A stretch of 64,000 bases of DNA from Diospyros lotus (Eukaryota; Streptophyta; Magnoliopsida; Ericales; Ebenaceae). A program made the position numbers and the translations under genes. Location: NCBI RefSeq assembly GCF_014633365.1, contig NC_068346.1:12731030-12795029 (forward strand), given 5' to 3'. The notes under the pieces are model-generated. The model was not told the DNA's origin, made no database searches, and saw only the letters and a list, made by a program, of their open reading frames with translations. Within the stretch, counting starts at the first letter, position 1. Every line of letters starts with the position of its first letter. This document shows positions 1,451 through 52,010 of this stretch, in pieces.

Positions 1451-1598
1451 TATAAACCCTAATTGATCCATTTGAGTTGCAAATTTGCAATTGTAGCTTG
1501 TTGTTAGGATTGGGAAGAAAGAAACGAAGAGATTAAAGGCCCATCACTACCACCATCGCTCTCGTTGCCACTTCTTGCAGCCACGTTCACAGCTCTGG
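1451..1598. other. Short host spacer before the solo LTR
   Basis: No coding potential. The end of this stretch (ctctcgttgcc...) and the DNA at 3858-3892 and 11333 onward look like one original sequence now separated by insertions. Confidence 0.3.
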
Positions 1599-19179: not shown

Positions 19180-19244
19180 ACCACCGTCTCTGTTCTCCTG
19201 CTGAGGAGCAGTAGTCATACACAGAGAGTGACTTGGTGCCATCA

Positions 19245-20291
19245 ATGGCGAAACGGACTCAACTTCTTCTTCTCCTCTCTCTCATCGTCCTGCTTCTGTT
19301 TCCTATATCCTCTGCGCTGTCCTCGAACGCCGTGATCAACGCCGCCGAGATCCTCTCTAACTCCGGCTTCGTCTCCATGGCGTTAACACTGGAACTCGTC
19401 TCGCCGACCATCCTGACCCCGCAGCAGCAGTCTGCCACCATATTCTCTCCCTCCGACGCCGCTTTCGCCCAATCTGGACAGCCGTCGCTCTCTCTCCTTC
19501 AGTTCCACTTCGCTCCGCTCGCCTTCTCCCTTGAAAGCCTCCGCTCCCTGCCCTTCGGCACCAAGATCCCCACCTTGTCCCCCGGAAACTCCTTGATCGT
19601 CACCACGATCGATAACAGCCAGCAAGTTTTGCTCAACAATGTCACAATTAATGGATCGCCAATATTCGATGATGGATCGTTGGTCGTGTTCGGGATTGAC
19701 ATGTTCTTCGATCCGAATTTCAAGGTTTCGTCGCCGGCTCAGAGCCCTAGCCCTGATCTCCGATGCGTGGTCTCTGAAGCTGCTGAAATTACTTCGTCTG
19801 GCGGTTATTCGTTTGATGAAGCGTCTAGAATGATGAGAACCAGAGGCTACTCTGTTATGGCGTCGTTTCTCGATATGCAGTTACTAGGTTTTCTTGATCG
19901 GTCGGAGCTGACAGTGTTTGCCCCTATAGATGATGTGATGCTTGAATTTGCCGGTAATTTTAGTGCATACTCGTCGCTGCTTCTTCGACATGTTGTTCCT
20001 TGCAAGCTCACCTGGACAGATCTGAATAATTTCCAAGACGGGACAGTATTGAGGACGTTTTTGGACGGATTTACCATCAGAATTTCAAAATTCAATGATC
20101 TACTGATGTTAAATGAAGTTCCGCTGACATTTCCGGACATGTATTTTAGTGATTGGCTTGTTGTTCACGGCGTTCATGAAGTCATCGAGCAACCAGAAAC
20201 ACCAGAGCAAGTACCGCAAGCCTCATCTGAATTTGGCCTCGAGGAGGAGGAGAAGGAAGAGAAGCTCACTCCCGACCGTACCGAGTTTTGA
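19245..20291 (+). CDS. Fasciclin-like protein (FLA19/20/21-type), two FAS1 domains
   Basis: This intact single-exon gene encodes 348 residues. I start at the ATG at 19245; the open frame extends 4 codons further only through a TTG. Residues 1-25 form a hydrophobic signal peptide. Two FAS1 domains follow, about 30-155 and 195-315. Each has an H1-type motif (TIFSPSDAAF at 65-74, TVFAPIDDVM at 223-232), and the second ends with an H2-type LVVHGVHEV. Sequons are at N132 and N238. The linker has a short SPAQSPSP stretch that could carry arabinogalactan. The C-terminus is acidic (EEEEKEEK) and lacks a hydrophobic tail, so there is no sign of a GPI anchor. Length and layout match the small Arabidopsis FLA19-21 group. 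These proteins are secreted wall or surface glycoproteins thought to act in adhesion; the exact role is unknown. It is convergent with the PPR gene. Confidence 0.92.
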   Translation: MAKRTQLLLLLSLIVLLLFPISSALSSNAVINAAEILSNSGFVSMALTLELVSPTILTPQQQSATIFSPSDAAFAQSGQPSLSLLQFHFAPLAFSLESLRSLPFGTKIPTLSPGNSLIVTTIDNSQQVLLNNVTINGSPIFDDGSLVVFGIDMFFDPNFKVSSPAQSPSPDLRCVVSEAAEITSSGGYSFDEASRMMRTRGYSVMASFLDMQLLGFLDRSELTVFAPIDDVMLEFAGNFSAYSSLLLRHVVPCKLTWTDLNNFQDGTVLRTFLDGFTIRISKFNDLLMLNEVPLTFPDMYFSDWLVVHGVHEVIEQPETPEQVPQASSEFGLEEEEKEEKLTPDRTEF

Positions 20292-21850: not shown

Positions 21851-23554
21851 TCAAGAATCGATTGTTATTGGAGTTTTTCTCAGCTTGTCCATCTTCTGAA
21901 CCAACATAAGAACGGTGTCCTTCCTACCCTCATCATGTAGAGACTTTTTCAGATTACTGAACATATAGGCAGGAGGCCTAATGCCCAGATCCAACATCTC
22001 CTCAAAATATTTGCAGGCTCCATCCAGTTTGTCCTCATGGCACAACGCGTTTATCAGTGTCGAGAACATATGCATCCCGGGAAGGACTCCCTTGGCTTTC
22101 ATCTGATCCCAAACCCTCACCGCCATATCAGTTCGCTCCTCATTGCAGAACATCCTAACCATGATCTCATATGTACACACAGTCGGCTCACATCCCTCAG
22201 TGCTCATCCTCTGGAAAACAGAGTAAGCTTCTTTTGTCCTTCGAGTCTTCACAAGGTGATGCAAAATTATATCGAATGTTCGGGAATTTGGACCGACCCC
22301 AAACTGTCTCATCTCATCCACCACCTTATATGCATCATACATCCGCTCTGACCAGCAATACGATCCCACAAGCGCATTATAAGTGGGCGCCTCTGGGGTG
22401 AAACCGCTAGACTTGGAGAGCTCAAAATACCTGAGAGCTTCACTCAGCCTCTTCTCAGAACCCAACCCATAGATCAGAGTACAGTATATATGGGGAGTGG
22501 GCTCGACCCTCTTCCTTCCCATCTCATCAAACACCCGAATTGCATCATCATATTTCTTAGCCTTGCAATAAGCATTGATGAGGATTCCATAAGTCACCAC
22601 GTCCGGCTCAAACCCATCATCCCTCATCTCTCGATAAACTTCATCCAATCTCAGCAAATTCTGTTTCTGCCCCCACCCTTCCAACAGTATCGTGTAGGAC
22701 TTGATATCGGGCTTGAACTTTCTGTTATTCCATTTATCAAACACCTGGTGCGCACGCTCAACGTGTCTGGACTTGCTCAGTATATCGAGCAGTCTGTTAA
22801 AATCTTGCAATTCTAGTTTCATTCCAAACTTCTCCATCTTCTCAAACGCCTCAATGGCTTCTTTCACCTTCCTCGCCCTGGCGTACCTCCGAGAAATCAA
22901 AGCAAAGGTCTCCCTTGTCAGCAGGCCCTTCTGTTTCATCTCGTGCACCAAATCCCAAGCCATCTTGAACTGCTTGATCTTCCCTAGTGCTTCGATCAGA
23001 GCATTATAGCTCTCTGTGCCATGCTTGAAACCCCTCTGCTTCTCGGCCCATCGGAAAAAGGCTAGCGCCAGAACGCCGGCGTTGCTGAGCTTTTTCAGAA
23101 CTTGCAGAACTAACTCCGGCGTGATCTCAACGCCGGTGCCATCCAAAGAAGATTCAACGCCGGAAGAACTGAGGTGGTTCGATAGTACTCTGCAGAGTTT
23201 CTCCGCGTCTTCAGCAGCAATTGGACCGCTTTTGACATGTGGGTTTTGCTCATCGGCATCAATGGTAGATTGGATGTTGGCCGGATGTTCGAGGATTGAT
23301 CTGTGGAAGCTGAAATTTCTATAAACCAGAAGAACTGAACTTGGGTGAGAGGAAACTGAATCTTGGACGTGAATCTTTGAAGGGGAAGTCGGTATTTGGT
23401 TTCTACGCGGGCTGAGTGAGGAAACTTCACTGCTGGATGTGATACGGAGAAGAGAGGAATGGGGGAAGACGGTATTGTTGAGTTTAGCTTTCTGAATCAG
23501 AAGACAGTTTCTTCTAAACGAAGTTGCTACCCGACGACTGTGGAAAAGAACCAT
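21851..23554 (-). CDS. Mitochondrial-type pentatricopeptide repeat (PPR) protein, At1g71060-like
   Basis: One uninterrupted exon of 567 codons begins at an ATG (complement of 23552-23554). The N-terminus is rich in Arg, Ser and hydrophobic residues with few acids (MVLFHSRRVATSFRRN...), typical of a mitochondrial transit peptide. From about residue 182 to 530 there are about ten P-type 35-residue repeats, with phrases such as SYNALIEAL, SYTILLEGW, TYGILINAYC and TYNALVGSYC at regular spacing. There is no E, E+ or DYW tail, so it is a P-class PPR, a class that binds organellar RNA to stabilise, process or help translate it. The order of motifs and several exact phrases fit Arabidopsis At1g71060, named from recollection and not from a search. 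Its RNA target is unknown. It is intact, with no frameshift. Confidence 0.93.
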   Translation of the reverse strand: MVLFHSRRVATSFRRNCLLIQKAKLNNTVFPHSSLLRITSSSEVSSLSPRRNQIPTSPSKIHVQDSVSSHPSSVLLVYRNFSFHRSILEHPANIQSTIDADEQNPHVKSGPIAAEDAEKLCRVLSNHLSSSGVESSLDGTGVEITPELVLQVLKKLSNAGVLALAFFRWAEKQRGFKHGTESYNALIEALGKIKQFKMAWDLVHEMKQKGLLTRETFALISRRYARARKVKEAIEAFEKMEKFGMKLELQDFNRLLDILSKSRHVERAHQVFDKWNNRKFKPDIKSYTILLEGWGQKQNLLRLDEVYREMRDDGFEPDVVTYGILINAYCKAKKYDDAIRVFDEMGRKRVEPTPHIYCTLIYGLGSEKRLSEALRYFELSKSSGFTPEAPTYNALVGSYCWSERMYDAYKVVDEMRQFGVGPNSRTFDIILHHLVKTRRTKEAYSVFQRMSTEGCEPTVCTYEIMVRMFCNEERTDMAVRVWDQMKAKGVLPGMHMFSTLINALCHEDKLDGACKYFEEMLDLGIRPPAYMFSNLKKSLHDEGRKDTVLMLVQKMDKLRKTPITIDS

Positions 23555-34474: not shown

Positions 34475-35140
34475 CGTGATTTCGTTAAGATACCTTTTTA
34501 TGAAATTCGCTACTTCACATGGAGTAGGCTAAGACTCCAAGTTAGTGAAGACCGAAAGAAGGCTAGAAACTACTACATTTCCTTAAACAAAGGAAAAACT
34601 CAAGGAGAAACACAAGCCATAATAGAACAATTCATATATAAGCCTCAAGCCATAGAGAAATTGGAGGTTATATAGCTGAAGGATAGAGAGACAAAAAAAT
34701 TGGTATATGTAGGAAGTTAGCTACCAATGGAAACTAAAAAAGAAATTATGGAATGCCTAAAATCCAACCTTGACATATTTGCTTGGTCACTAGCTAACAT
34801 ACTGGGAATTAATCTAGAAATAATTTACCATCAACTAAATGTCAACCCTAAAATGAGGCCAATTAAATAAAAGAAAAGAAATATTATGTCAGATAGACAA
34901 TAAACATTATAAGAAAAGATTGACAAATTACTGAAGATTGATTTTATATAAGAAGTGTATTATCCTGAATTGTTGGCCAATGTTGTAATGGTTAAGAAAG
35001 TTAATGGAAAGCGGAAAGCATGTGTGGACTTTACTAATCCCAACAAATCTTGTCTAAAGGACTCTTATCCTCTCCCACATATTGATAAATTGGTAGGCGT
35101 GACTTTAGGATATAAACTTCTAAGTTTCTTAGATGCCTTT
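34475..35140 (+). pseudogene. Reverse transcriptase, first part (old Tat-like element)
   Basis: After the hAT-like element the plus strand resumes pol. At 34955-35140 it reads VVMVKKVNGKRKACVDFTN, SYPLPHIDKLV and LLSFLDAF, the conserved start of gypsy RT up to the block holding the first catalytic Asp. Several stops lie upstream (34674, 34720, 34870). The frame is cut at 35140 by a reversed solo LTR and resumes at 36988. Confidence 0.75.
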
Positions 35141-36982
35141 TGGCTGCACTCTTACCCTGCAATTAAAACACAATAAAAATACATTAAAACTTTTATATTT
35201 TTTTTCTTTATTTTGGTGAGAGGTTTATACTCGTCAGTATACGAGTGCAGTTATAGTTCAAATTTAAATTTATATTTTTTGGATGAGTCCAAGTCGTCTA
35301 CTGAGAGATTTATTTATGGAAAAAGATGTCACAACCACGCACACGCATTTGGATGAATTGGTAATAAGATTTTTTCTTATGATTTTTTTAGATAATAGAT
35401 ACTAGGAAATAAAGTAAGGCAGAAGTTGAAATATACGCTTAATGTGAGGATATGAAATTGGATAGCACTTGAGTTAAGACAATTTCAACACCAACCCGTT
35501 GATTCTCAAATTTTAGCAGAAAAGATTAGCAACATTAATTTAATTTCAGATTTAAGGGTTTGTTATTAAATGCAATTAGAGATGATGATAGTTCTAGTTT
35601 AAGTAATCCCCATACATGATATGCGGGATTCTAGTTTAAGCAACTACCATAAATCCGATTGCAATTAATACACGAAACAACTAAATTAATCATCCGGATT
35701 TGGGTATGATAGCGTTTCCAGTTCTAGTAACTCCCATACATGGCATGAACTCTCTAAATTAGGCTTACGCTCCAATCCAAACCTAGTGATTTCTCAATAA
35801 TTACTACACACCCATACTGAAATTTTAATTAATGTCACTCATTTAAAGCGCAGCTTTTTTTGGAAATCATTGGTGTTGGACACTGTCCTTGTCTTAACCT
35901 AAAATTGGATTTAGCTACTCATCTCCATTTAAAAGTTTAATTGACAGGAATTTAAATAGCATAATTTAAATAACAGAATTTAAATGACAAGAATTAAAAT
36001 AGCAAAAATTAATCGGCCATTTAGGCGGTGGATAATTAAAAGACTAGAATTAAAATTGCAGAAATTTAAAAATAGAAATTAACTGGTCATTTAGGCGGTG
36101 AATAATAAAGTAACAATAAATGACGTAAGAATTTAAAAGAAGAAAAAAAGAAAGTAAGATCACAAGAGAAAACAATAGAGAAAATAAGAGAGAACAAAAG
36201 CAATTCTCAAAGAGAGAATTCTAAGAAAACAACTAAGGTTTGATTCAAGAATAATAATCACCCTTACAAATGCAATCAAGTGAGCTATTTATTAGCCCAC
36301 AAGATGCAATATAAACCACACAATTTCAATTATTCAACTAGACATAATTATATCTAATGGGCACTCACACACTTAAAGTTAAATAGATTTTAGTTATAAT
36401 ACACACATAAAGTTAAATGGATTTTAGTTAAAATACACACCTAATAAAGCACTCATAAAGTTAAATGGATTTTAGCTAAAATACATACCTAATAAAGCAC
36501 TCAAAAAAATTAATATTAAAAAAAATAAAAATAGATTTCTACAATTGAGTTTTTAATCTTCATTAGGATTAAAAATAATGTTTGGGCCTTCTCCAAATGA
36601 TGTCTTCCATGGGCTTGCTCAAGTTGGGCCTTAATTCTTCATGGGCTAGGTTTGAATTCTTCATTCTTCAATCCAATTTGAGTCGCCAAATCCACTTCTT
36701 CACGCCTACAAACAAGCAATTGAGTGTTATTAATAAATTATATATTATATATATGATATATTATATGGTATATTATATACTTATATATTATATAGATGCT
36801 CCATGCATGCACTCCATTGAGTATATGTATTATGTTATAATATATATATATTATATTTATATGTTTATTATAATATATTATATTATATATATATATTACA
36901 CATAACTATTCAATTAAACCAATTTAAAATCAAAATAGGGGTTATAATTATAACAAAATTTTACAAAATTAACCACTAATCA
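35141..36982 (-). mobile_element. Solo LTR of the Athila-like family, reversed, TSD ccttt
   Basis: It is the reverse complement of the LTRs at 38058-40002 and 49710-51714, with more divergence and indels. In plus sense it begins TGGCTGCACTCTTACCCTGC and ends AACCACTAATCA. The 5-mers 35136-35140 and 36983-36987 are both ccttt. At 1842 bp it is nearly full length. It lies inside the RT of the old Tat-like element, 1.1 kb from the full-length family member in the opposite orientation. The open frames inside it (for example 36582-36905) are not genes. Confidence 0.92.
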
Positions 36983-38009: not shown

Positions 38010-38057
38010 TAGAGCATTAAACTCATTAGGAAGTACAACTCGGATAGTACTAATATC
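38010..38057 (+). pseudogene. Second RNase H-like domain, first part (cut by the Athila-like insertion)
   Basis: The open frame up to the target site atatc (38053-38057) continues without a shift at 51715 after the inserted element, in a sequence that matches the additional RNase H domain of Tat elements (phrase EYEALI at about 51782-51799). This confirms that the insertion split a single domain. Confidence 0.65.
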
Positions 38058-38383
38058 TGATTAGTGGTTAATTTTATAAAAATTTTGTTATAATTATACC
38101 CTTCTTTTGATCTTAAAAATAGTTTAAATTATATATTAATATATATTTTATGGTTATATGCAAGTTTAAATTGAAAAATGAATGAAATGAAATTTTAAAG
38201 TAAAATTTAATAATAATAATAATAATAATATATAAAATTATATATAATACATATACATCATTATATGCATTCATGTAAAATATATATAATATAATATAAT
38301 ATATATTTATGTGCCATGTGTAATACATATATATAATATATAATTTATTAATAATATTAAATTATTTTTATTTTTTTTTTAGG

Positions 38384-38502
38384 CATGAAGAATTAAAGCC
38401 CATGAAGACTTAAAGTCCATGAAGAATTCAAGTCCATGAAGAAATCAAGCACATGAAAAATTAAAGTCCATGAAGAATTCAAGCCCATGAAGAATTAAGG
38501 CC
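38384..38502 (+). repeat. 17-bp tandem repeat in the 5' LTR, 7 copies
   Basis: Units are variants of catgaagaattaaagcc. The 3' LTR has 10 copies at 50035-50204. The 51-bp difference accounts for most of the LTR length difference. Confidence 0.9.
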
Positions 38503-38855
38503 CAATTTGAGCAACCCATGGAAGATATTATTTGGAGAAGGCCCAAGGATTATTTTTAATCCTAATGAAGATTAAAAACCAATTTATAGAAATCTATTTT
38601 TATTTTTTATGTGAGAGCTTTATTAGGTGTGTTTTTTAGCTAAAATCCATTTAACTATTAGGTGGATATTATAGCTAAAATCCATTTAACTTTATGAATG
38701 CTTTATTAGGTATGTATTTTAGCTAAAATCCATTTAATATTAGGTGTGTATTATAGCTAAAATCCATTTAACTTTAAGTGTGTGAGTGCCCATTAGATAT
38801 AATTATGTCTAGTTGAATAATTGAAATTGTGTGGTTTGTACTGCATCTTGTGGCC

Positions 38856-38863
38856 TATAAATA
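38856..38863 (+). promoter_or_regulatory. TATA box of the Athila-like 5' LTR
   Basis: tataaata preceded by a GGCC word; the same box is in the 3' LTR at 50558-50565. The position about 1.1 kb before the LTR end fits a U3 promoter. Confidence 0.6.
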
Positions 38864-40007
38864 GATCACTTGATTGCATTTGTAAGTGTGATTATTATTC
38901 TTGAATCAAAGTTTAATTGTTTCCTTATAATTCTCTCTTTGAGAATTGTTCTTGTTCTTTCCCCTTTTCTTTAGTATTCTCTCTTGTGATCTTACTTCCT
39001 TCATTTCTTCTTTTAAATTCTTATGTCATTTATTATTACTTTATTATTCACCGCCTAAATGGCCGGTTAATTTGTGCCTTTAAATTTCTTGTCATTTTAA
39101 TTCTTGTTATTTAATTATTCACCGCCTAAATGGCCGGTTAGTTTATGCCTTTAAAATTTCTTGTCATTTAAATTCTGTTATTTAAATTACGTCGTTTAAA
39201 TTCATGTCAATTAACTTTTAAATGGAAATGAGTAGCTAAATCTAATCTTGGGTTAAGGTAAGGACAGTGTCCAACGCCAATGATTCCCAAAGAAAGCTGC
39301 GCTTTAAATAAGTAACATTAATTTAAATTTCAGTATGAGTGTATCTTAATTATTGAGAAATCACTAGGTTTGGATTGGAGCGTAAGCCTAACTTAGAGCT
39401 TTCATGCCATGTATGAGAGTTACTAGAACTGGAAACGCTATCATACCCAAACTCGGATGATTAATTTAGTTGTTTTGTGTATTAATTGCAATTGAATTTA
39501 TGGTGGTTGCTTAAATTAGAATCTCGCATATCATGTATGGGGATTGCTTAACCTAGAACTATCATCATCTCTAATTGCATTTAATAACAAACCCTCATAT
39601 CTGAAATTAAATTAATGTTGCTAATCTTTTATGCTAAAATTTGGGAATCAACGGGTTGGCACTGAAATTGTCTTAACTCAAGTACTATCCAATTTTATAT
39701 TCTCACTTAAAGTATTTATTTCAATTACTGCCTTAATTTATTTCCTAGTATCTGTTGTTTAAAAAACCTTGTTGCCAATTTATCCAAATGCGTGTGTGCT
39801 TGTGTGATATTCTTTTTATTTTGCCATAAATAAATCTCTCAGTGGACGACCTAGACTCATTCAGAAAATATAAATTTAAATTTGGACTACAACTGCACTC
39901 GTACACTGACGAGTATAAACCTCTCACCTAAACAAAGAAAAAAATATAAAATTTTTATTGTGTTTTGTTTTGTGTTTTAATTGCAGGGTGGGAGTGCAGT
40001 CAAATTT

Positions 40008-40025
40008 TGACGCCGTTGCCGGGGA
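40008..40025 (+). other. Primer-binding site, tRNA-Asp type
   Basis: TGACGCCGTTGCCGGGGA begins 5 bases after the 5' LTR. It fits the primer site complementary to the 3' end of tRNA-Asp that is common in Athila elements, with one mismatch at the third position. Confidence 0.8.
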
Positions 40026-40130
40026 GATTGAGGCAAAAACAAAAAGAAAAAAAAAATATAAGAAGAAGCATCTCCTGATAAATTCGGTAACTCTGTTTCT
40101 TTTTACTTTATTTTTATTTGTGCATAGTGT

Positions 40131-42230
40131 ATGATACTTAGGTCAGGTAAAACTGTAGAAATTCAGTCACTCATGTCTCAACACAATGAGAACATGCCAC
40201 TTCCACAGAACATGTCTGCACGTGGTAGTGACCACGGTGACCCTGATCCCATTGATCAGGAGATGATCAGACCCCTTAGGGAGTATCTTCATCCTCCTAG
40301 GCAGACAACCCCCTCATGCATTATTCTTCCCATCAATCATCATAGGTTTAACTTCAAACCTGGCACAATCCAATTGTTGCCAACTTTTCATGGCATGGAT
40401 TCTGAAAATCCATATACTCATATGAAAGAATTTGAGGAAGTATGTAGCACTTACATGGACCATACAGCAAATGAGGATGTCATAAGATTAAAACTCTTTC
40501 CATTCTCACTGAAAGATAAGGCAAAAATATGGTTAAGCACTCTCCCACCTAGATCTATAGGAACTTGGAGAGAAATCCAAACAACTTTCTTAAAAAAATA
40601 CTTCCCTGCCAACAGAACTGCTACTCTTCAAAGACAAATCATGAACTTTGCCTGTAAACCAAATGAGAATTTTGCGCAAGCGTGGGAAAGGTTTAAAGAC
40701 CTTCTTCACACTTGTCCGCACCATGCTTTTGAGCAATGGAGAGTGGTCAGTTTCTTTCATGATTCACTCACTCCCCAATTGAAAATGCTAGTTTCTACAA
40801 TGTGCAATGGAGAATTCTATGAGAAGACTCCAGAAGAAGCTTTCCACTTCTTTGACACATTGGCTGAGAATACAAGGAACTGGGAAGTTGGTCCAACATC
40901 TGCTCTTGATTCAAGAGAAAATCCACAACCTAGAGGGAGATACCAACTGAGTGAGAGTGACGATTTAAATGCAAGACTAACTGCTTTAACAAAGAAAGTT
41001 GAAAACATGCAACCCAAAAAGGTGCAATCTGTTAATCAAGTGGAAGTAAAGTGTGCTGTGTGTGATGCAACAGATCATTCAACTGAAGAATGTCCTACCC
41101 TACCTGCTTTCAAGGAGGTATTGTATGGGCAGACTAATAACAATCATTCACACAACTTTGAGGGGAGACAAAATCAAAATCAGAGTGGAGCCTATTATGG
41201 GAATAATCAGAACTACAATTCATACCATCCCAATAATAGAAATCACCCCAATTTTTCTTGGAGAAATGATTCTGGAAATCATTCTCAACCTCCCTTCCCT
41301 ACACAACAACATAACTTTCAACAAAATCAAGGTTCTTCATCCAATACTTACCAACCTCCTCATAGGAGATCTTTGGAAGATACCTTGCACCAGTTCATCC
41401 AAAGTCAAACAGGTATCAATAATCAGGTTGCTCAGCTTGTCAAAAATCAAGACCAAACAAACAGAGCCATAGAAGACATTAGGAGCCAGTTGACCAAGAT
41501 AACACAAACATTGAGTGTGAGAGAACCCGGGAGGTTTCCATCCCAAACTAATCCTAACCCAATTAGGCAAACCAACCAGGTAGAAGCTTCAAATAGTGAA
41601 ACCAACACTCATGAACAAGTGCAAGCAGTGACTGCCCTAAGAAGTGGAAGAATAATTGAGAAACTAACTGATCCTAGGATAAACCAACATGTTGATGAAG
41701 AAAAAGAACCAAAAGATCATGAATCCACAGTGGAAAAAAATGAAAAAAATGAGAAAAATGAAAAACAAAAAGAAGATGAGAAAGAAATTCAATACAGGCC
41801 CAAACCACCTTTTCCACAAAGGTTGAATCATTTGAAAAAAGAGCAACAAAATGCAGATATATATGAAGTGTTTAAGCAAGTGAGAATCAACATCCCGCTG
41901 TTGGATGCAATCAAACAAACACCTTCATATGCAAAATTTTTGAAAGATCTGTGCACTGTCAAAAGGAAAACAAATGTGCATGAAAAGGCATTCTTGACTG
42001 AACAAGTCAGCGCCATTCTCCAATTGAAAACTCCTCCCAAATACAAAGATCCAGGCTGTCCAACCATTACATGCATCATAGGAAGTCAAAAGGTTGATCG
42101 GGCACTCTTGGATTTAGGAGCTAGTGTCAATTTGTTGCCATACAGTGTGTATCAACAGTTGGGATTAGGTGAGCTTAAACCCACTAGAGTGACCCTTCAG
42201 CTGGCTGATCGATCAGTCAAAGTTTCATGA
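40131..42230 (+). pseudogene. Gag and start of protease (Athila-like polyprotein, ends at premature stop)
   Basis: It opens at the ATG at 40131 (MILRSGK...). Gag core spans about residues 70-255, with conserved words such as RLKLFPFSLKDKAKIWL and AWERFKDLL. A zinc knuckle C-x2-C-x4-H-x4-C is at 308-321. A Gln/Asn-rich linker follows, then a Lys/Glu-rich stretch near 555-590. Protease starts near 645, with active-site DLGAS at about 661. A TGA at 42228-42230 ends it inside the protease, but the same frame stays open afterwards, so the stop is a later mutation. Gag would package the RNA and form the particle. Confidence 0.9.
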
Positions 42231-44456
42231 GGAATTGTGGAGGATGTTCTGGTACAAATCGATAAGTTCTACTTTCCAGTGGACTTCATCGTTTTGGACA
42301 CCCAGCCGCATCAGGGGCCTCAACCTCCTGTGCCAGTCATCTTAGGTTGACCATTCCTTGCCACATCAAATGTCATCATCAACTGTAGGAATGGTGTGTT
42401 AAAGCTATCTTTTGGGAACATGATTGTAGAAATGAATATCTTCAGGGTAGCCAAACATCAGGACACTGAGAGTGAAGTGGAGGAGGTAGACTTGATCCAA
42501 ACACTGACCAATGACTGTTTTGAAGAGTTCATGAGAAGACCCAAAGAAGGAAATCAAGATCTTGAAGAAATAAAAGAAGTGGAAGTCATAAGCAAAGAAA
42601 GTGAGAAGCCTACATGGATGCCTGGTTTAGAGCCATTAAGGAACTTGGACAGTAAGCTCATGGCTCTTGATAGCCATCAGTCCACGCCTGAGAGAAAGCC
42701 ATTGCCTAGTGATTTGAAGTATGTCTTTCTAGGAGAAGGGGAAGCATTCCCAGTGGTGATCTCTTCAAGTTTGACACCTCAGCAAGAGCAACAACTGATA
42801 GAAGTTCTAAAAGCACACAGGAAGTCATTAGGATGGACCATTTCAGATTTGCAAGGTATTAGCCCTTTGATCTGTACTCATAAGATATTATTGGAAGAAA
42901 GAGCAAAACCAGTTAAGCAAATGCAAAGGAGATTAAATCCCAACATGAAAGAAGTTCTCAGAAAAGAAGTGCTTAAGCTATTGGATGCTGAAATAATTTA
43001 CCCAATCTCTGATTCTAAGTGGGTAAGTCCAACACAGGTAGTACCCAAAAAGTCTGGAGTCACTGTTGTAAAAAATGAGAACAATGAACTGATTCCCACG
43101 CGCATCCAGACAGGATGGCGTATGTGCATTGATTATAGAAAGCTCAATTCTGTGACAAGGAAAGATCATTTTCCTTTGCCTTTCTTGGATCAAGTTCTGG
43201 AGAGAATAGCAGGCCAAGCCTACTATTGTTTCTTAGATGGCTACTCAGGGTACAATCAGATAGAAATTGCACTAGAAGATCAAGAGAAGACAACTTTCAC
43301 ATGTCCATTTGGGACATTTGCATACAGGCGCATGCCATTTGGGTTATGCAATGCTCCAGCCACCTTTCAAAGGTGTATGATGAGCATTTTCAGTGAAATG
43401 GTTGAGCAGATTGTTGAAGTATTTATGGATGACTTTTCTGTTTATGGAAGTAACTTTGAGGCCTGTTTGGAGAATCTGAAAAAGGTTTTAGCAAGATGTG
43501 AGGAAACAAATCTGATACTCAATTGGGAAAAATGTCACTTCATGGTGAAACAGGGCATAGTCTTGGGGCACATCGTTTCATCTAGGGGGATGGAGGTAGA
43601 CGGGTTAAAAATTGAAACAATTCAAAAACTCCCCATCCCTAGGAATGTGAAAGACATCAGAAGTTTTTTGGGACATGCAGGGTTTTATAGGAGATTCATT
43701 GCTTCCTTTAGCACCATAACAAGACCCTTGTGCCATTTGTTGTCTCAAGATGTTCCGTTTGAATGGAGTCCTGCCTGTCAAAATGCTTTTGATAAATTGA
43801 AAGATGCACTCATTTCAGCACCTATCATTCAGTCCCCTGATTGGTCCCTCCCGTTTGAACTTATGTGCGATGCTAGTGATTACGCGGTAGGAGCTGTGTT
43901 AGGGCAGAGGAAGGATAAGAAACCTCATGTGATATATTATGCTAGCAAAACTCTTAATGAGGCACAAAAGAATTACACCACTACAGAGAAAGAGTTACTA
44001 GCAGTTGTCTTTGCCCTGGATAAGTTTCGATCTTACCTCGTAGGGTCACTAGTGATCATTTTTACTGATCACGCTGCTTTGAAGTATTTGTTCACAAAGC
44101 AAGATGCAAAACCCCGTCTGCTCCGATGGACCTTACTCCTACAAGAGTTCAACATTGAAATCAGAGACAAGAAGGGAGTAGAAAATGTGGTGGCTGACCA
44201 TTTGTCAAGGATTCCAAGTCAAGATCTCACACAATTTGATGAACCAATTCATGACAATTTCCCTGATGAGCAACTGTTTAAAGTAAATGTTATTCGTGCA
44301 TCATCTGTTGTCCCTTGGTATGCCGACATTGCGAACTACCTGGCAACTGGTCTGATCCCAGACCATTGGAGTAAGCAAGATAGGCATAAATTCTTCAGAA
44401 AAGTCAGAACCTTCTTTTGGGATGAGCCCTACCTCTTCAAGTATTGTCCTGACTAA
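42231..44456 (+). pseudogene. Protease end, reverse transcriptase and RNase H (Athila-like polyprotein)
   Basis: It continues in the frame of the gag part. A second TGA at 42348-42350 lies 40 codons after the first. RT has WRMCIDYRKLN (about 43114), the FLDGYSGYNQI block, PFGLCNAPATFQ, and the catalytic FMDD at 43422-43433. RNase H follows with Asp in MCDAS (about 43867), Glu in TEKELLAV and Asp in FTDHAALK. A TAA at 44454-44456 ends this part at the boundary to integrase. Apart from the stops the catalytic residues are all in place, so decay is slight. Confidence 0.92.
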
Positions 44457-45611
44457 ATCATCCGTAGATGCATACCTGATCATGAGCAACAAAGTGTCAT
44501 CAATTTCAGTCATACTCTTGCATGTGGAGGCCATTTTTCTGTCAAGAAAACAGTTGCAAAAATTTTTCAGAGTGGATTTTATTGGCCGACACTGTTCAAG
44601 GATGTGTACAAGTTCTGTTCAAATTGCGATCGATGTCAAAGGTTAGGAAGTCTGTCAAGGAGAAACATGATGCCATTACATCCGATCCAAGTGTTAGAAG
44701 TTTTTGACTGTTGGGGTATGGATTTTATGGGCCCATTTGTCAATTCATTTGGTCATGAATATATCTTACTTGCTGTTGACTATGTGTCCAAATGGGTAGA
44801 AGCAATCCCGGCCAGAACAAATGACCATAGGACTGTCGTGAAATTTTTGAAAGAAAACATATTCAGTCGATTTGGGATGCCACGAGCAATCATCAGTGAT
44901 GGGGGTTCCCATTTTTGTAATAAAGTTGTGGCAGGATTAATGAAGAAATATGGTGTACTGCATAAGGTTGCAACACCATACCATCCCCAAACCAATGGTC
45001 AAGCCGAGCTAGCCAATAGGGAGATTAAGCGCATATTGGAAAAGACTGTTGCTGCTAATCGTAAGGATTGGTCCTTAAGACTAGTAGACGCTCTTTGGGC
45101 GTACAGGACAGCTTACAAAACAATTTTGGGAATGTCTCCCTATAGGCTAGTATACGGTAAATCTTGTCATCTGCCGGTGAAAATTAAGCATAAAGCATAT
45201 TGGGCAATTCATAAGATCAACAAGAGTCTAACTGAAGCAGGCTTATCCAGGAAGCTCCAATTGAATGAACTTGAGGAAATTCGGAATGAAGCATTTGAAA
45301 ATGCACGATTGGCCAAGGTTCGCACGAAAGAGTTACATAATCGGCACATCATTCGAAAAAGCTTTCAGGTAGGGCAACGGGTACTCTTGTATGATTCTCG
45401 ATTGCACCTATTCCCAGGAAAATTGAAGTCTCGATGGGTCGGCCCCTTTGTAATCAAGTCCATCTCAGGATATGGGGCATTTGAGATAGAAAATCCGGAG
45501 TCAGGACAGCTTCTAACAGTCAATGGTCATAGGTTGAAACCATACCAGGGTAGTGTTGAGGAGAATGAAGGAGTTGTGGATTTGGATGATCCATCATCAT
45601 CTGATGAGTAG
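44457..45611 (+). pseudogene. Integrase (Athila-like polyprotein), still in the gag-pol frame
   Basis: The frame reopens straight after the TAA. An HHCC zinc domain (H...H then C-x2-C in FCSNCDRCQ, about 44613-44640) precedes the core. Catalytic DD35E is complete: Asp in GMDFMGPF, Asp in IISDGGSHF and Glu in [10 protein letters not shown], with 35 residues between the last two. A GPF-type C-terminal motif ([12 protein letters not shown]) follows. The ORF ends at 45609-45611 with an acidic tail. Without readthrough of three upstream stops it would not be made from the polyprotein. Confidence 0.9.
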
Positions 45612-46514
45612 GAAAAGTTTCCTATCGTCTGGGAATCTGACGTTAAAAGACCACCTTTCCATTTAGGTTAAATGGATGTTTATAGATCTGAAAAGAAATA
45701 ATAAAAATAATAAAAAATTAAATAAAAAAAAGAAAAAATTAAAATAAAATAAAATAAAATAATAAAGAATTATATATGTAAGTTGTTCATTTTCTGCATT
45801 ACTTAATTAACTTTGATTCAAATAGTATTTCTTTGTGTGCAGTCTAAATAAAATTTTTTTGCATACGAGTTCATGCATTGAAGACCACCAGGTATGCCTA
45901 TCTTCTATCCTTTTATTGTCGATTGAGGACAATGTAAGGTGTACTTGATTTTATTGGTGTTTGAAACTGATCCATTGTGCAAATAATTTTGTTAGACTCG
46001 ATAATATTGTCTTGTGTGGTATGTATGATTTTATTGGGCCCCTAAAACAAAACATTTATTAAAAAAAAAATCAAAAAAAAATAAAATAATTAATAATAAG
46101 AATAAGAATAAGAATAAGAATAAAAAAATTAAAAAAAAAACAATAAAATAATAATATAAAAAAAATTTGAATTGAGAGAGACAGAATTGACGCTGGTGGT
46201 AGCTATCTTTTCTTGGGCAGTGCAATCACACTGCCCTATAAAGGATAAGGCACACTGCCAAATGTTGAAAAATGAGGCACCAAGCGTTGAAAAAGAGACG
46301 CCAAGCCTGACCCTGTAATCATGGCATGCCTCGAGCCGAGTGTAAAATAGTGATGGTCATTGCTCTATAAGAGACTCCATATCTGTATAAGGCAAGCCAC
46401 CCTTCTTGAGCTCAGTCTTCTCTCCTTTGTGTTATTCTCCGATCAGGTACTCTAATCCCTTTTGTAAAGTTTATAGTTCTTTACTTTCTTCTTAGTATAG
46501 TTAAAAAAAAAAAA
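45612..46514 (+). other. Leader region ahead of the extra ORFs
   Basis: No ORF. It contains A-rich low-complexity runs (45690-45770, 46050-46160), a hairpin with TATA at 46215-46244, and a second TATA-like tataagag near 46361, followed by tataaggca and a pyrimidine-rich stretch. This layout resembles a plant promoter and 5' UTR placed just before the 46515 ATG. It could allow the extra ORFs to be transcribed separately from gag-pol, or it could be a relic of the captured sequence. Confidence 0.4.
46215..46244 (+). promoter_or_regulatory. Perfect hairpin followed at once by a TATA box
   Basis: GGGCAGTG (46215-46222), loop caatca, CACTGCCC (46229-46236), then tataaagg at 46237-46244. The 8-bp stem is perfect. 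Confidence 0.5.
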
Positions 46515-47060
46515 ATGGATCTTTATCTCTCAAAAATTTACAAGTACTATCCATCTCTCCCGCAGAATGATTTGAAAAAAATTTATGTTGCTAGGTGTGA
46601 AAGACTTAGGTTGTTGATGCTTAATAACATCCCTGAAGATATTCGTTGGCTGATCGAAGCAAAAGTTCGATTAGCTGGTGAAACTTCACCTAGTTTTAAG
46701 CATTTTCCAGGCTTAGGGAAGAGTAGTTTTGCGAAGAAAAGAAGAGCGAAAAGAGTGAATGGTTGTTACAAATGTGCTCGATGGACCTGTAACACACGAT
46801 GCAAATCTGTGGGGTTTACGTCCATAAATCGAGAAGATAAAATTAGTTTCATAAAGGATGGACTGAGTAAGAAGTCTCTGGATGATATCCGATTGACTCT
46901 TGAGACGCATCCATGTGGAATAGTGCAAAGAGAACTTCTTGCTTTATGGACCCAGTTCAGAAGTGACCACCAACGCTATAGTCTTGGGAATCTGACTAAA
47001 AAAGACCCTGTTTGCCAATCTATAAGAAAATTAGATGGGAAGCTTATCCCCGCTTCATAG
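46515..47060 (+). CDS. Basic cysteine-rich protein of unknown function (extra ORF 1)
   Basis: An intact ORF of 181 codons starts at an ATG after a poly-A run. I do not recognise it as a host gene or as env. Residues about 73-82 are strongly basic (KKRRAKR) and are followed by C-x2-C-x4-C-x3-C (CYKCARWTCNTRC), which could bind one zinc ion. A second part (about 105-165) is predicted helical with mixed charge. No signal peptide or membrane segment is present, which argues against an env-like role. The layout of a basic stretch plus a four-Cys finger recalls small nucleic-acid-binding proteins of some filamentous plant RNA viruses, but this rests on pattern alone. It lies 167 bp before the LOG-like ORF. 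Unlike gag-pol and the LOG-like ORF it has no stop. Confidence 0.6.
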   Translation: MDLYLSKIYKYYPSLPQNDLKKIYVARCERLRLLMLNNIPEDIRWLIEAKVRLAGETSPSFKHFPGLGKSSFAKKRRAKRVNGCYKCARWTCNTRCKSVGFTSINREDKISFIKDGLSKKSLDDIRLTLETHPCGIVQRELLALWTQFRSDHQRYSLGNLTKKDPVCQSIRKLDGKLIPAS

Positions 47061-47227
47061 AAAGTGTTTAAGCCGTTTCTGGACGTAAAACCAGAGGAAG
47101 ATGTGAGCCACAATCACAACTACTTATACATACGCATGATTTTTGTTTGTATTTATTTCTTGTTGAATTGTTGTATAGCTACTTTTGATCGCCAAACTTC
47201 TTTTCAGGACATACAAAAGGAACAAAC
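47061..47227 (+). other. Spacer between extra ORF 1 and the LOG-like ORF
   Basis: 167 bp with no coding content, T-rich towards the end (ttgtttgtatttatttcttg), ending with cttcttttcagg at 47198-47209, a good splice-acceptor-like signal 19 bp before the LOG ATG. Confidence 0.35.
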
Positions 47228-47887
47228 ATGGAAGGCCAGTTAGTTCGTCGAATCAATACCATATGTGTACTTTGTGGCTCTCAACTTGGGAGCGATATTT
47301 GTTACGCACTTGCAGCGAGCGAACTTGGTAAAAAATTAGGAGAGAAAAAAATTAATTTGGTATATGGAGGGGGAAGTCGTGGATTGAATGGTTATGTTTC
47401 ATAAGCTGTACATCTTGGAAATTCATCTGTGGTAGGTATAATGCCAATCCCTTTAGCTGAATCACATATTTCCGAAATTACACGCGGTCAACTTATAGAA
47501 ACGACTTCTATGTCTGAGCGCATGACTTGTAAGATTTATCAGTCAGATGCCTTCATTGCTTTACCAGGAGGTTTTGGAACACTTGAAGAAATCTTTTGTA
47601 TAATCTCCTGGGCCAAGAGTAATCTCCATACCAAACCTATTGAACTTTTAAATGTTAATCATTTTTTCGATGGGTTACTCTCTTTTCTTGATCAGGCTGT
47701 GGACCAACAGTTCATTTCTCGTTCAGCAAGAAAGATTCTCATTTCTGCATCCACCATTGATAAGCTGCTAGAGAAATTACATGCTTATGTTCCACAGTAC
47801 GATCCTCATGAGCCTCGGATAGACTGGTCTAAGGCAATTAGTAACAAGCGCCAAAGGGGTCCGATTAATTTAGATTTATCACTGTGA
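47228..47887 (+). pseudogene. LOG-like (cytokinin riboside 5'-monophosphate phosphoribohydrolase) ORF with one premature stop
   Basis: The frame runs from ATG 47228 to TGA 47887 (219 codons) and is broken only by TAA at 47402-47404 (codon 59). Family signatures: start INTICVLCGS, then LVYGGGSRGLNG (usual GGGS-x-GLMG), and the nucleotide-site motif LPGGFGTLEE (usual PGGYGTLEE), with the preceding Arg in MSERM. LOG enzymes release active cytokinin bases from their riboside monophosphates in the cytosol and nucleus. The copy is intronless, although plant LOG genes have several introns, so it was probably captured from spliced mRNA. It is clearly diverged from canonical plant LOG. The premature stop should remove the catalytic half unless translation restarts downstream. 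It sits on the element's coding strand, just 5' of the 3' untranslated part. Confidence 0.88.
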
Positions 47888-47894
47888 GAAATGC

Positions 47895-47946
47895 TCTTTG
47901 ATAAGATGGCTGAGTAAGGAGTACTTTTTGTACTCTTGAGACGCAT
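47895..47946 (+). repeat. 52-bp direct repeat, copy 1, with gagtac-ttttt-gtactc hairpin
   Basis: Starts tctttgataagatggctgag and ends gagacgcat; identical to 48043-48094. Each copy contains the inverted repeat GAGTAC...GTACTC around a T5 loop. Confidence 0.9.
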
Positions 47947-48042
47947 CTAGTTATTGTACAACTCGCAGAATTTTTCTTGATTGTGTTCTTTAAAAAAAAA
48001 AAAAAAAAAACAAAACAAAATTGTGGAATGTTGTTAGCAAAG

Positions 48043-48094
48043 TCTTTGATAAGATGGCTGAGTAAGGAGTACTTTTTGTACTCTTGAGACGCAT
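48043..48094 (+). repeat. 52-bp direct repeat, copy 2
   Basis: Same sequence as 47895-47946, 148 bp further on, separated by an A-rich run. Confidence 0.9.
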
Positions 48095-48263
48095 TTTGCT
48101 TATCTTATGACTTGCATGAAATTTTTATTTTGGTGTGAAAATATAAATATATATATATATATGGTGTGCTCATTTGTTGTTTAAGTTTTAGCAGTTCACA
48201 GCAAATCTATAGACTTGTGGAGTTACAGGTATTCCTAACAACCCTGATTTATTACTGCAATTC

Positions 48264-48274
48264 AAGTTGGGGGG
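48264..48274 (+). other. Internal polypurine tract copy
   Basis: aagttggggggt occurs here (about 48264-48275) and again at the 3' polypurine tract (49697-49708). It could prime a second plus strand, as central polypurine tracts do in lentiviruses and some retrotransposons. Confidence 0.45.
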
Positions 48275-49696
48275 TGTAAGGTCTAGTCATGAATCATCTG
48301 GTTTATATTTAACTGTGAGTTTGTAATTACTAGTTTGTAGTCTTGTGGGAATTGATTGTCTTTATCTGCTCTTATAAAAAAAAAAAAAAAATTATTATGT
48401 GTTTTAAATAATGCTATTCCTAAAGCTTTAAAGTTATGCACTGATAGCCAGTTAAGTTTGCAATACGAAACATGAATGCATTGATTTCTCATTTGAAAAT
48501 GTTTATGCATGAGAATAAGTAATTTACATTCATCAGGGATTCAAAATTTAAAAATTGGTTATCGGTCATAAAGTCAAAGGTAACAGTAATTAGCTGATTA
48601 GTACACTGTATGATCCCTCAACAGAAGTGGAGACTATTACCCAAGTGAGTGTTTGAGCCTAATAACCGTTAATTCTGAGTGAAATAACACTTACTCTAAA
48701 TATGCTCTCTTGTTTATCTTATCTTTTCAATGGCTTCAAAATATCAATTCGCTTTGAATGTCTAGTATGATAGCGGATGAATTTGACTGGTTTCAAACTA
48801 TGAATTAGATGACTGAGAAGCATGATAGGGGGATCAATTTCTTTCATTTTGAGCCTATTTTTTTTTCTTTAAATCAACCTCTTGTTAGCCCATTTGAGCC
48901 ATTTGTAGTACAACTTCTTTCGTTACCCTCGTTTAACCCATAACCATATGAATTTTATCCAACCTGGTGTGATTTTGGGAATTAGTCTGTTTATCTATTT
49001 TCATATTTAAAAAGAAAAAGAAAAAAAAAAGAGAAAAAAAAAAGAAGAAAAAAAAAGTGAAAAAAAGGGGGCAAATTCTCTTAGTTATTCAGCATAACTG
49101 TTTCAAAATGAATGCTAAAAAAAAAAAAAATCCCAACACACCCTTTGCACACTCTACCTTTTCTTTGACAACCCGTATTAACCTTATAGCCCCATTACAA
49201 CCCAGTCTGGTCCCTTTTGATGCTATAAATCATGTGATCTCAGAATTCGAGTTTGGAGTAGGGAATCATGTTTAAATTCAGAAGTTACTCATCTAAAGCA
49301 TTATTCCAATCATGAAGCTATGTCAATTTCCTTGTTCTTTCATGAAAATACGTTCCTTGTATTTGGGATGGCACCGAGTTTTGAACTTGTTCTGCATTTA
49401 CTCTTATAACGGTGCACCCCCTTGTGTGTACACCTGAGGAATCTTTTTTATTGGAGAGAAAATCCATAGTAAGATTTGAAGTCAAAACTTTGAGGGAGTA
49501 AGTCTGTGTGTTGGTTATCCTAATTTCCATTCCTGAGATTATATGACCTTTAACCAAAAATCTGATTTAGAATGCTAAATTATTTATTTAATTTTATGCA
49601 TTTCGGTTTCGAATTTGAAATTTTTACATTCATACAGTTATTGTGAATAAAGTTTGGCAGGTGTATAATCTGATTGCTAAGGGACTAGCAATGTTT

Positions 49697-49709
49697 AAGT
49701 TGGGGGGTA
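49697..49709 (+). other. 3' polypurine tract
   Basis: taagttggggggta directly before the TG of the 3' LTR at 49710. Confidence 0.85.
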
Positions 49710-51714
49710 TGATTAGTAGTTAATTTTATAAAAATTTTGTTATAATTATACCCTTCTTTTGATCTTAAAAATAGTTTAAATTAGATATTAATATATATTT
49801 TATGGTTATATGCAAGTTTAAATTGAAAAATGAATGAAATGAAATTTTAAAGTAAAATTTAATAATAATAATAATAATATATAAAATTATATATAACACA
49901 TATACATCATTATATACATTCATGTAAAATATATATAATATAATATAATATATATATATGTGTGCCATGTGTAATACATATATATAATATATAATTTATT
50001 AATAACATTAAATTATTTTTATTTTTTTTTTAGGCATGAAGAATTAAAGCCCATGAAGACTTAAAGTCCATGAAGAATTCAAGTCCATGAAGAAATCAAA
50101 CCCATGGAGAAATCAAGCCCATGAAGAATTCAAGTCCATGAAGAAATCAAGCACATGAAAAATTAAAGTCCATGAAGAATTCAAGCCCATGAAGAATTAA
50201 GGCCCAATTTGAGCAACCCATGGAAGATATTATTTGGAGAAGGCCCAAGGATTATTTTTAATCCTAATGAAGATTAAAAACCAATTTATAGAAATCTATT
50301 TTTATTTTTTATGTGAGAGCTTTATTAGGTGTGTTTTTTAGCTAAAATCCATTTAATTATTAGGTGGATATTATAGCTAAAATCCATTTAACTTTATGAA
50401 TGCTTTATTAGGTATGTATTTTAGCTAAAATCCATTTAATATTAGGTGTGTATTATAGCTAAAATCCATTTAACTTTAAGTGTGTGAGTGCCCATTAGAT
50501 ATAATTATGTCTAGTTGAATAATTGAAATTGTGTGGTTTGTATTGCATCTTGTGGCCTATAAATAGATCACTTGATTGCATTTGTAAGTGTGATTATTAT
50601 TCTTGAATCAAAGTTTAGTTGTTTCCTTATAATTCTCTCTTTGAGAATTGTTCTTGTTCTTTCCCCTTTTCTTTAGTATTCTCTCTTGTGATCTTACTTC
50701 CTTCATTTCTTCTTTTAAATTCTTATGTCATTTATTATTACTTTATTATTCACCGCCTAAATGGCCGGTTAATTTGTGCCTTTAAATTTCTTGTCATTTT
50801 AATTCTTGTTATTTAATTATTCACCGCCTAAATGGCCGGTTAGTTTATGCCTTTAAAATTTCTTGTCATTTAAATTCTGTTATTTAAATTACGTCGTTTA
50901 AATTCATGTCAATTAACTTTTAAATGAAAATGAGTAGCTAAATCTAATCTTGGGTTAAGGCAAGGACAGTGTCCAACGCCAATGATTCCCAAAGAAAGCT
51001 GCGCTTTAAATAAGTAACATTAATTTAAATTTCAGTATGAGTGTATCTTAATTATTGAGAAATCACTAGGTTTGGATTGGAGCGTAAGCCTAACTTAGAG
51101 CTTTCATGCCATGTATGAGAGTTACTAGAACTGGAAACGCTATCATACCCAAACCCGGATGATTAATTTAGTTGTTTTGTGTATTAATTGCAATTGAATT
51201 TATGGTGGTTGCTTAAATTAGAATCCCGCATATCATGTATGGGGATTGCTTAACCTAGAACTATCATCATCTCTAATTGCATTTAATAACAAACCCTCAT
51301 ATCTGAAATTAAATTAATGTTGCTAATCTTTTATGCTAAAATTTGGGAATCAACGGGTTGGCACTGAAATTGTCTTAACTCAAGTACTATCCAATTTTAT
51401 ATTCTCACTTAAAGTATTTATTTCAATTATTGCCTTAATTTATTTCCTAGTATCTGTTGTTTAAAAAATCATAAAAAACCTTGTTGCCAATTTATCCAAA
51501 TGCGTGTGTGCTTGTGTGACATTCTTTTTATTTTGCCATAAATAAATCTCTCAGTGGACGACCTGGACTCATTCAGAAAATATAAATTTAAATTTGGACT
51601 ACAACTGCACTCGTACACTGACGAGTATAAACCTCTCACCTAAACAAAGAAAAAAATATAAAATTTTTATTGTGTTTTGTTTTGTGTTTTAATTGCAGGG
51701 TGGGAGTGCAGTCA
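49710..51714 (+). repeat. 3' LTR of the Athila-like element
   Basis: Nearly identical to 38058-40002, with three more 17-bp units (50035-50204, 10 copies) and a few small changes such as an extra catgaagaa-like block and an inserted atcataaaaa word near 51465. TATA box at 50558-50565. Followed by target duplication atatc (51715-51719). Confidence 0.93.
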
Positions 51715-52010
51715 ATATCTCCAGTAGAAGAGATCTTGGAATATTCATTACCTTTTGTTCCAAGCTCAATCAATATTTCAGAATATGAAGCTTTAATTAC
51801 AAGCACGAAAATAGCCAAAAAACTTGAGGCTGATAAATTAATTGCTCATAGCAATTCTCAACTAGCTGTCAGCAATTCTAAGGCCAATATAAGACGAGAG
51901 AGCCGTTCATGCCCCAAATATTTACAAAAGGTCAAAATACTAGGTATAATCATTCAAAGATTTCTAGCTTATACAAATCAATAGGTCTTTGAATAGTCAC
52001 ACTGATGTAC
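51715..52010 (+). pseudogene. Second RNase H-like domain, remainder (old Tat-like element)
   Basis: Continues the frame of 38010-38057 after the Athila-like insertion. Reads SPVEEILEYSLPF, then EYEALI and a segment AHSNSQLAV that corresponds to the HSDSQL-type motif of this domain. The frame stops at 51982. Confidence 0.7.

Follow-up and report, generated by a model that had tools for sequence, protein, structure and literature searches.

The window, a stretch of 64,000 nucleotides from the Diospyros lotus genome (NC_068346.1, positions 12,731,030 to 12,795,029), contains an LTR retrotransposon at positions 38058-51714, which has TG...CA ends and is flanked on both outer sides by a perfect ATATC target-site duplication (38053-38057 and 51715-51719, neither assigned to a strand). 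All features of the element given below lie on the plus strand. The 5' LTR (TGATTAG...GCAGTCA, 38058-40002, 1945 nt) and the 3' LTR (49710-51714, 2005 nt) show 16 mismatches in 1942 aligned columns, corresponding to a divergence of 0.8%. A primer-binding-site-like sequence, TTGACGCCGTTGCCGGGGA (40007-40025), which presumably corresponds to tRNA-Asp, lies just inside the 5' LTR, and a polypurine-tract-like sequence, AAGTTGGGGGGTA (49697-49709), adjoins the 3' LTR. Pfam recognised the gag, RT-RNase H, and integrase domains: gag (PF03732) together with the start of the protease at 40131-42230, RT-RNase H at 42396-44456, both terminating at an internal stop, and integrase (PF00665) at 44604-45611. 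These domains belong to a single gag-pol frame that is interrupted by three internal stops (42228, 42348, and 44454), which mark this young copy as defective. With its LTRs, target-site duplication, gag, polypurine tract, and RT-RNase H ahead of integrase, the element is a member of the Ty3/gypsy group. We take it to be Athila-like from the resemblance of gag, the integrase end, and the primer binding site. Just upstream, at 35139-36647, there is an inverted LTR-like stretch of the same family that is 87% identical and represents a solo LTR or a fragment.

Downstream of integrase, two further genes precede the 3' LTR. The first is an intact ORF of 181 residues (46515-47060) encoding a viral-type nucleic-acid-binding protein (NABP), which matches Viral_NABP (PF05515; E 1.1e-8, 35.8 bits, cut-off 23) and Carla_C4 (PF01623; E 4.5e-5, 23.8 bits, cut-off 20.9) and contains a basic patch, KKRRAKR, as well as the zinc-finger cysteines CYKCARWTCNTRC. 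The second is a LOG-type gene (47228-47887), which contains the motifs GGGSRGLNG and PGGFGTLEE but is interrupted by a single in-frame stop at position 47402. The 152-residue piece downstream of this stop matches PF03641 (E 9.9e-31) and Arabidopsis At2g37210 (PDB 2a33), which we take to be LOG3 (E 2.7e-30); both matches are far beyond chance. A first-pass annotation of this DNA had described a LOG-like frame with the glycine and PGGxGTLEE motifs and a stop at 47402, located in a retrotransposon after integrase and before the 3' LTR, and our analysis bears out each of these points: the stop is present and single, and the frame lies on the same strand as integrase within the limits of the LTRs and the target-site duplication, which rule out a position outside the element. 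Absent from that annotation were the neighboring NABP gene, an LxLxL tail on the LOG-type protein, and the prior print record of LOG in gypsy elements, all of which are described below. The LOG frame is intronless, which fits capture through a spliced RNA.

Relatives of NABP and the LOG-type protein

Of 568 candidates in a protein search, 511 qualified as NABP homologues with an E-value no higher than 0.001. The best 120 of these 511 share 59-91% identity with the window protein and have precomputed PF01623 assignments; Populus, Orobanche, Xanthoceras, Acer, and Rhamnella are named among the matches listed. Within the same best 120, the cysteine pattern CxxCx4Cx3C is found in 101 and a KKRRAKR-like patch in 86 proteins, and the NABP alignment was built from the window protein and 43 of them. 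When six NABP-bearing homologues were rescanned, PF01623 was above cut-off in all six and PF05515 in four. Judged by these profile matches, the kinship of NABP with the viral cysteine-rich family appears real but modest in score. The predicted NABP structure is poor (pLDDT 64.6), and the best viral match in a fold search with this model was the silencing suppressor of chrysanthemum virus B at a non-significant E of 0.43; of the top seven viral fold matches, four are proteins of plant flexuous viruses that are named as suppressors of silencing or as binding nucleic acids. The element protein shares with the cysteine-rich proteins of carlaviruses, vitiviruses, and allexiviruses (Viral_NABP, Carla_C4; Pfam above cut-off) the arrangement of a basic patch followed by zinc-finger cysteines, but differs from them in being encoded by a retrotransposon and in its size of about 181 residues; the CxxCx4Cx3C spacing was counted on the element side only. 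None of 89 pattern matches in viral contigs was confirmed as NABP, and in genome contigs one of 430 was confirmed (L021, discussed below). In the open-access literature surveyed, including the accessible text of PMC6338049, we found no report of a viral-type NABP in plant retrotransposons.

The corresponding search with the LOG-type protein gave 2217 candidates, 2191 of which had an E-value of 0.001 or lower. The closest among the matches listed is P0121 from Diospyros lotus itself, an intact protein of 219 residues with 95.4% identity over the frame; its model (mean pLDDT 86) adopts the LOG fold, as shown by a Foldseek match to 2a33 (E 6.5e-23). Reevesia pubescens contributes 25 of the best 120 of 2191 matches; these bear 12 different chromosome labels, and such a scatter of copies resembles that of a mobile element. 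We call such proteins element-type by sequence relation, the location in an element being individually established for a minority of the matches. In viral contigs, 20 candidate LOG loci with 27-47% identity were found.

That gypsy elements can carry a LOG domain is already known. As accessible in PMC9289625, which cites Steinbauerova 2011, consensus sequences of gypsy elements from two Citrus species contain a YgdH/LOG domain, as do those of Populus trichocarpa when no filter is applied. These elements are like the one in the window in having a LOG-type domain in a gypsy element of a flowering plant, whereas the account given there makes no mention of a viral-type partner, an LxLxL tail, or active-site changes. 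The NABP partner, the tail, and the active-site changes are what is added here.

Several observations link the two genes. The Orobanche gracilis models P0047, P0068, and P0103, from three contigs of differing sizes, each contain NABP followed by LOG sequence, and P0004 (NABP) and P0136 (LOG) come from contigs of the same listed size, 8723. Matches to NABP or LOG were found in at least six orders (Ericales, Lamiales, Malvales, Rosales, Malpighiales, and Sapindales), a count that rests on the named organisms among the matches listed that have one or both genes. The two-gene set thus spread looks like a long-standing toolkit and no accident.

In a phylogenetic tree, the LOG matches separate from the host LOGs with a support of 100/98; the tree comprised 40 of the 84 full-length matches (thinned), 24 of 120 host LOGs, and a single long-branched bacterial outgroup. 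The long divergence from canonical LOG that had been proposed at the outset is thus upheld. On the element side, the earliest branch is formed by P0225 and P0232 from Xanthoceras, which lack LxLxL and retain the host-like lysine and glutamate at two positions that most element-type proteins have replaced (see below). These two proteins may be host genes near the source or degraded element genes. As a side observation, they are a possible clue to the cellular source of the element LOG.

The confirmed genome contig, L021, encodes within positions 1-3330 a plant-type retrotransposon integrase followed by NABP. It is filed under a bacterial (Nomurabacteria) MAG and is probably plant contamination of that MAG. 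No LOG is present in the 983 nt after NABP in L021, which indicates that not every NABP element carries LOG. The earlier suggestion that LOG may be a standing part of this element family therefore holds as far as its standing presence is concerned but not as a rule for every member. L021 is the only second DNA sequence for the NABP comparison. Between the window and L021, we obtained a dN of 0.235 and a dS of 0.92 for NABP and a pN of 0.223 and a pS of 0.81 for integrase, so that, for this one sequence pair, the constraint on NABP is about as strong as that on integrase.

Tail and active site of the element-type LOG proteins

The LOG frame ends with the codons of a basic tail (47840-47884) that terminates in NLDLSL, an LxLxL sequence. 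LxLxL occurs within the last 14 residues of 103 of the best 120 of 2191 LOG matches and of 73 of the 84 full-length proteins, against an expectation of 1.6% in shuffled sequences. It was found in 0/120 host proteins (best 120 of 7958), a set collected with two Arabidopsis LOGs that holds LOG1/3/4/8-like proteins only, so that the contrast is firm only against this type. Of the 84 full-length matches, 71 have a basic patch within their last 18 residues, vs two of 120 host proteins, and patch and LxLxL are combined in 65/84 vs 0/120. The three leucines of the tail are conserved at 0.91, 0.97, and 0.99, the linker ahead of them is largely variable, and in the P0121 model the tail is a low-confidence, flexible segment. 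In its sequence, the tail resembles an EAR-type LxLxL motif and would be repressor-like. LxLxL is one of two EAR consensus patterns according to the accessible text of PMC9956375. In a downy-mildew effector, a C-terminal LxLxL binds and recruits TOPLESS, but LxLxL alone was insufficient for TOPLESS binding in other effectors, as far as described in the accessible part of PMC7446885.

The active site was compared in those 84 of the 120 listed LOG matches that are 190 residues or longer. Arg98, which we take to be the catalytic arginine, is kept in 82/84 and Glu121 in 83/84; the AMP-bound Pseudomonas LOG entry 5zbk has an alanine at the Glu121 position. The motif PGGxGTxEE is present in 76 of the 84 vs 114 of 120 host proteins, and the frame in the window itself has PGGFGTLEE and the arginine. 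The positions K99 and E124 (P0121 numbering) are lysine and glutamate in 120/120 host proteins, and element-type LOGs mostly have M, L, or I at the former and Q, H, or C at the latter; given these replacements, cytokinin activity may be lost. Across 82 element-type LOGs (the 84 full-length proteins with P0225 and P0232 left out), 53 of 94 host-invariant columns are kept at 90% or more. Taken by sequence and model, the element LOG group keeps the fold and most of the active-site motif and has a tail that is absent from the sampled host LOGs. Compared with the plant LONELY GUY phosphoribohydrolases (LOG1/3/4/8 sampled), it has the fold, the glycine motifs, and the catalytic Arg/Glu in common and differs in forming a separate clade, in the intronless frame, in the replacement of K99 and E124, and in the basic LxLxL tail.

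Conserved noncoding stretches and candidate splicing

The end of the NABP frame and the 70 nt beyond it (46985-47130) form a stretch that is conserved between the window and L021. The pS of NABP, 0.53 over the entire gene, drops to 0.23 for codons 151-180, and past the stop 61 of 70 noncoding positions are identical, with integrase synonymous sites near saturation. A short hairpin past the NABP stop shows, by eye, one compensated base pair (CTGG/CCAG vs CTAG/CTAG), and its fold z-scores are -2.08 and -1.41. A second, hairpin-like motif consists of CTGAGTA ... CTCTTGAGACGCAT around a variable stem; it occurs within the NABP frame of the window (46845-46915) and of L021 and twice after LOG (47893-47955 and 48041-48103). 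The copies share their flanks and differ in their stems, and the four z-scores of -0.63, -2.94, -1.68, and -1.20 place one copy well below its shuffles. A search for Rfam families in 45600-49800 gave three weak matches, none near cut-off, and the two conserved DNA patterns had 0 and 0 matches in viral contigs.

Acceptor-like sequences precede both NABP and LOG; the latter, TTCTTTTCAG, ends at 47207 and would close a candidate small intron (GTGAGC...TTCTTTTCAG, 47103-47207). These sites suggest that spliced accessory RNAs may be produced, and subgenomic RNAs generated by splicing are probably the templates for the translation of NABP and LOG. A second polypurine-tract-like sequence, AAGTTGGGGGG, is located at 48264-48274, about 1.4 kb ahead of the one at the 3' LTR, and the same motif recurs in L021 downstream of the L021 NABP.

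A possible host-directed module

LOG enzymes release active cytokinin, and the viral cysteine-rich proteins related to NABP act as suppressors of silencing. The one from chrysanthemum virus B is described, in the accessible text of PMC12172455, as a weak silencing suppressor and a transcription factor that induces hyperplasia. Host cell proliferation and defense are a shared theme, on which we read NABP and LOG as a selected host-manipulating module. With moderate confidence, we favor the view that the two proteins, both probably nuclear, form an accessory module that would adjust silencing and the state of the host cell. In an Athila-like Ty3/gypsy lineage of eudicots, this module would be located after integrase and ahead of the 3' LTR, its LOG-type protein bearing the added basic tail that ends in LxLxL. 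Both proteins would enter the nucleus, where NABP, like the carlavirus cysteine-rich proteins, could bind nucleic acid and weaken RNA silencing or alter host transcription. The LOG-type protein could act on cytokinin or a related nucleotide, and its tail could recruit TOPLESS-type corepressors. Together, the two proteins would keep expressing cells division-competent and weakly silenced, favoring new insertions. A bolder form of this proposal goes further: a widespread plant retrotransposon lineage would have a two-gene host-reprogramming module, pairing a flexivirus-type silencing suppressor/transcription factor with a LOG enzyme that is nuclear and recruits corepressors, and this module would act jointly on RNA silencing and hormone-driven proliferation; the gene family would also have been exchanged between retrotransposons and RNA viruses, so that the carlavirus-type cysteine-rich proteins may share their origin with the retrotransposon gene. 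We put this forward tentatively and consider it somewhat unlikely as a whole.

Other explanations read one or the other gene differently. The element LOG may work just as a host LOG does and raise active cytokinin, with a tail that only directs the protein or is idle. The retained fold, the catalytic Arg/Glu, and a PGGxGTxEE motif nearly as frequent as in the host set (76/84 and 114/120) agree with such a plain activator, but the replacement of K99 and E124, which are invariant in 120 host proteins, and the conservation of the tail in 103 of the best 120 of 2191 matches make it improbable in our view. We are equally doubtful about the opposite reading, in which the LOG domain no longer acts on cytokinins and has become a platform, binding nucleotides or dimerizing, for a corepressor-recruiting basic LxLxL tail. 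It would account for the active-site substitutions alongside the conserved tail, yet the glutamate is kept in 83/84 and the arginine in 82/84 proteins, which would be unexpected with the chemistry gone.

NABP could instead play no anti-silencing role and bind the RNA of the element, perhaps at the conserved stretch at its own 3' end, thereby controlling the export of unspliced RNA or splicing in the manner of Rev or CERV. The CERV protein of the Caenorhabditis elegans element Cer1 is a precedent, likewise an accessory protein of an LTR retrotransposon and there made from a spliced RNA (accessible text of PMC10309623); the likeness to NABP is by description, and we claim no sequence relation. 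The 61 of 70 identical noncoding positions and the acceptor-like sites ahead of NABP and LOG point the same way, but the family resemblance of NABP is to viral silencing suppressors and the RNA folds are weak in most copies, and we give this reading little credence. A one-off capture, with LOG as a dead passenger in the window copy, could explain the stop at 47402 and the lack of LOG in L021; it is very improbable in view of the intact, 95% identical relative P0121, the abundance and spread of relatives in which motifs and tail are conserved, and the NABP-LOG adjacency in O. gracilis.

The favored reading, that of a module adjusting silencing and host cell state, has a parallel in gypsy elements that encode an AlkB-type RNA demethylase and that PMC9289625, in its accessible text, reports for two Phalaenopsis species in its screen. 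These likewise have an extra ORF possibly countering host RNA control, but the enzyme is a different one. Extra genes of plant LTR retrotransposons are mostly without a known role, according to the accessible part of PMC7264820, and for the two genes described here, the proteins that they resemble have a biochemistry that is known or can be tested: a viral-type silencing suppressor in one case and, in the other, an enzyme that activates a hormone and bears a repressor-like tail. Whether plant retrotransposons actively suppress silencing and alter the state of host cells to gain copies is now testable, and the data suggest that genes have passed between retrotransposons and the RNA viruses of plants. 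They also provide a warning for annotation, since some plant LOG genes, such as P0121, the LOGL10 of Diospyros lotus, are probably element genes.

Elsewhere in the window, two further ORFs were noticed by eye: a pentatricopeptide-repeat-like ORF of 567 residues at 21851-23554 on the minus strand and a fasciclin-like ORF of 352 residues at 19233-20291.
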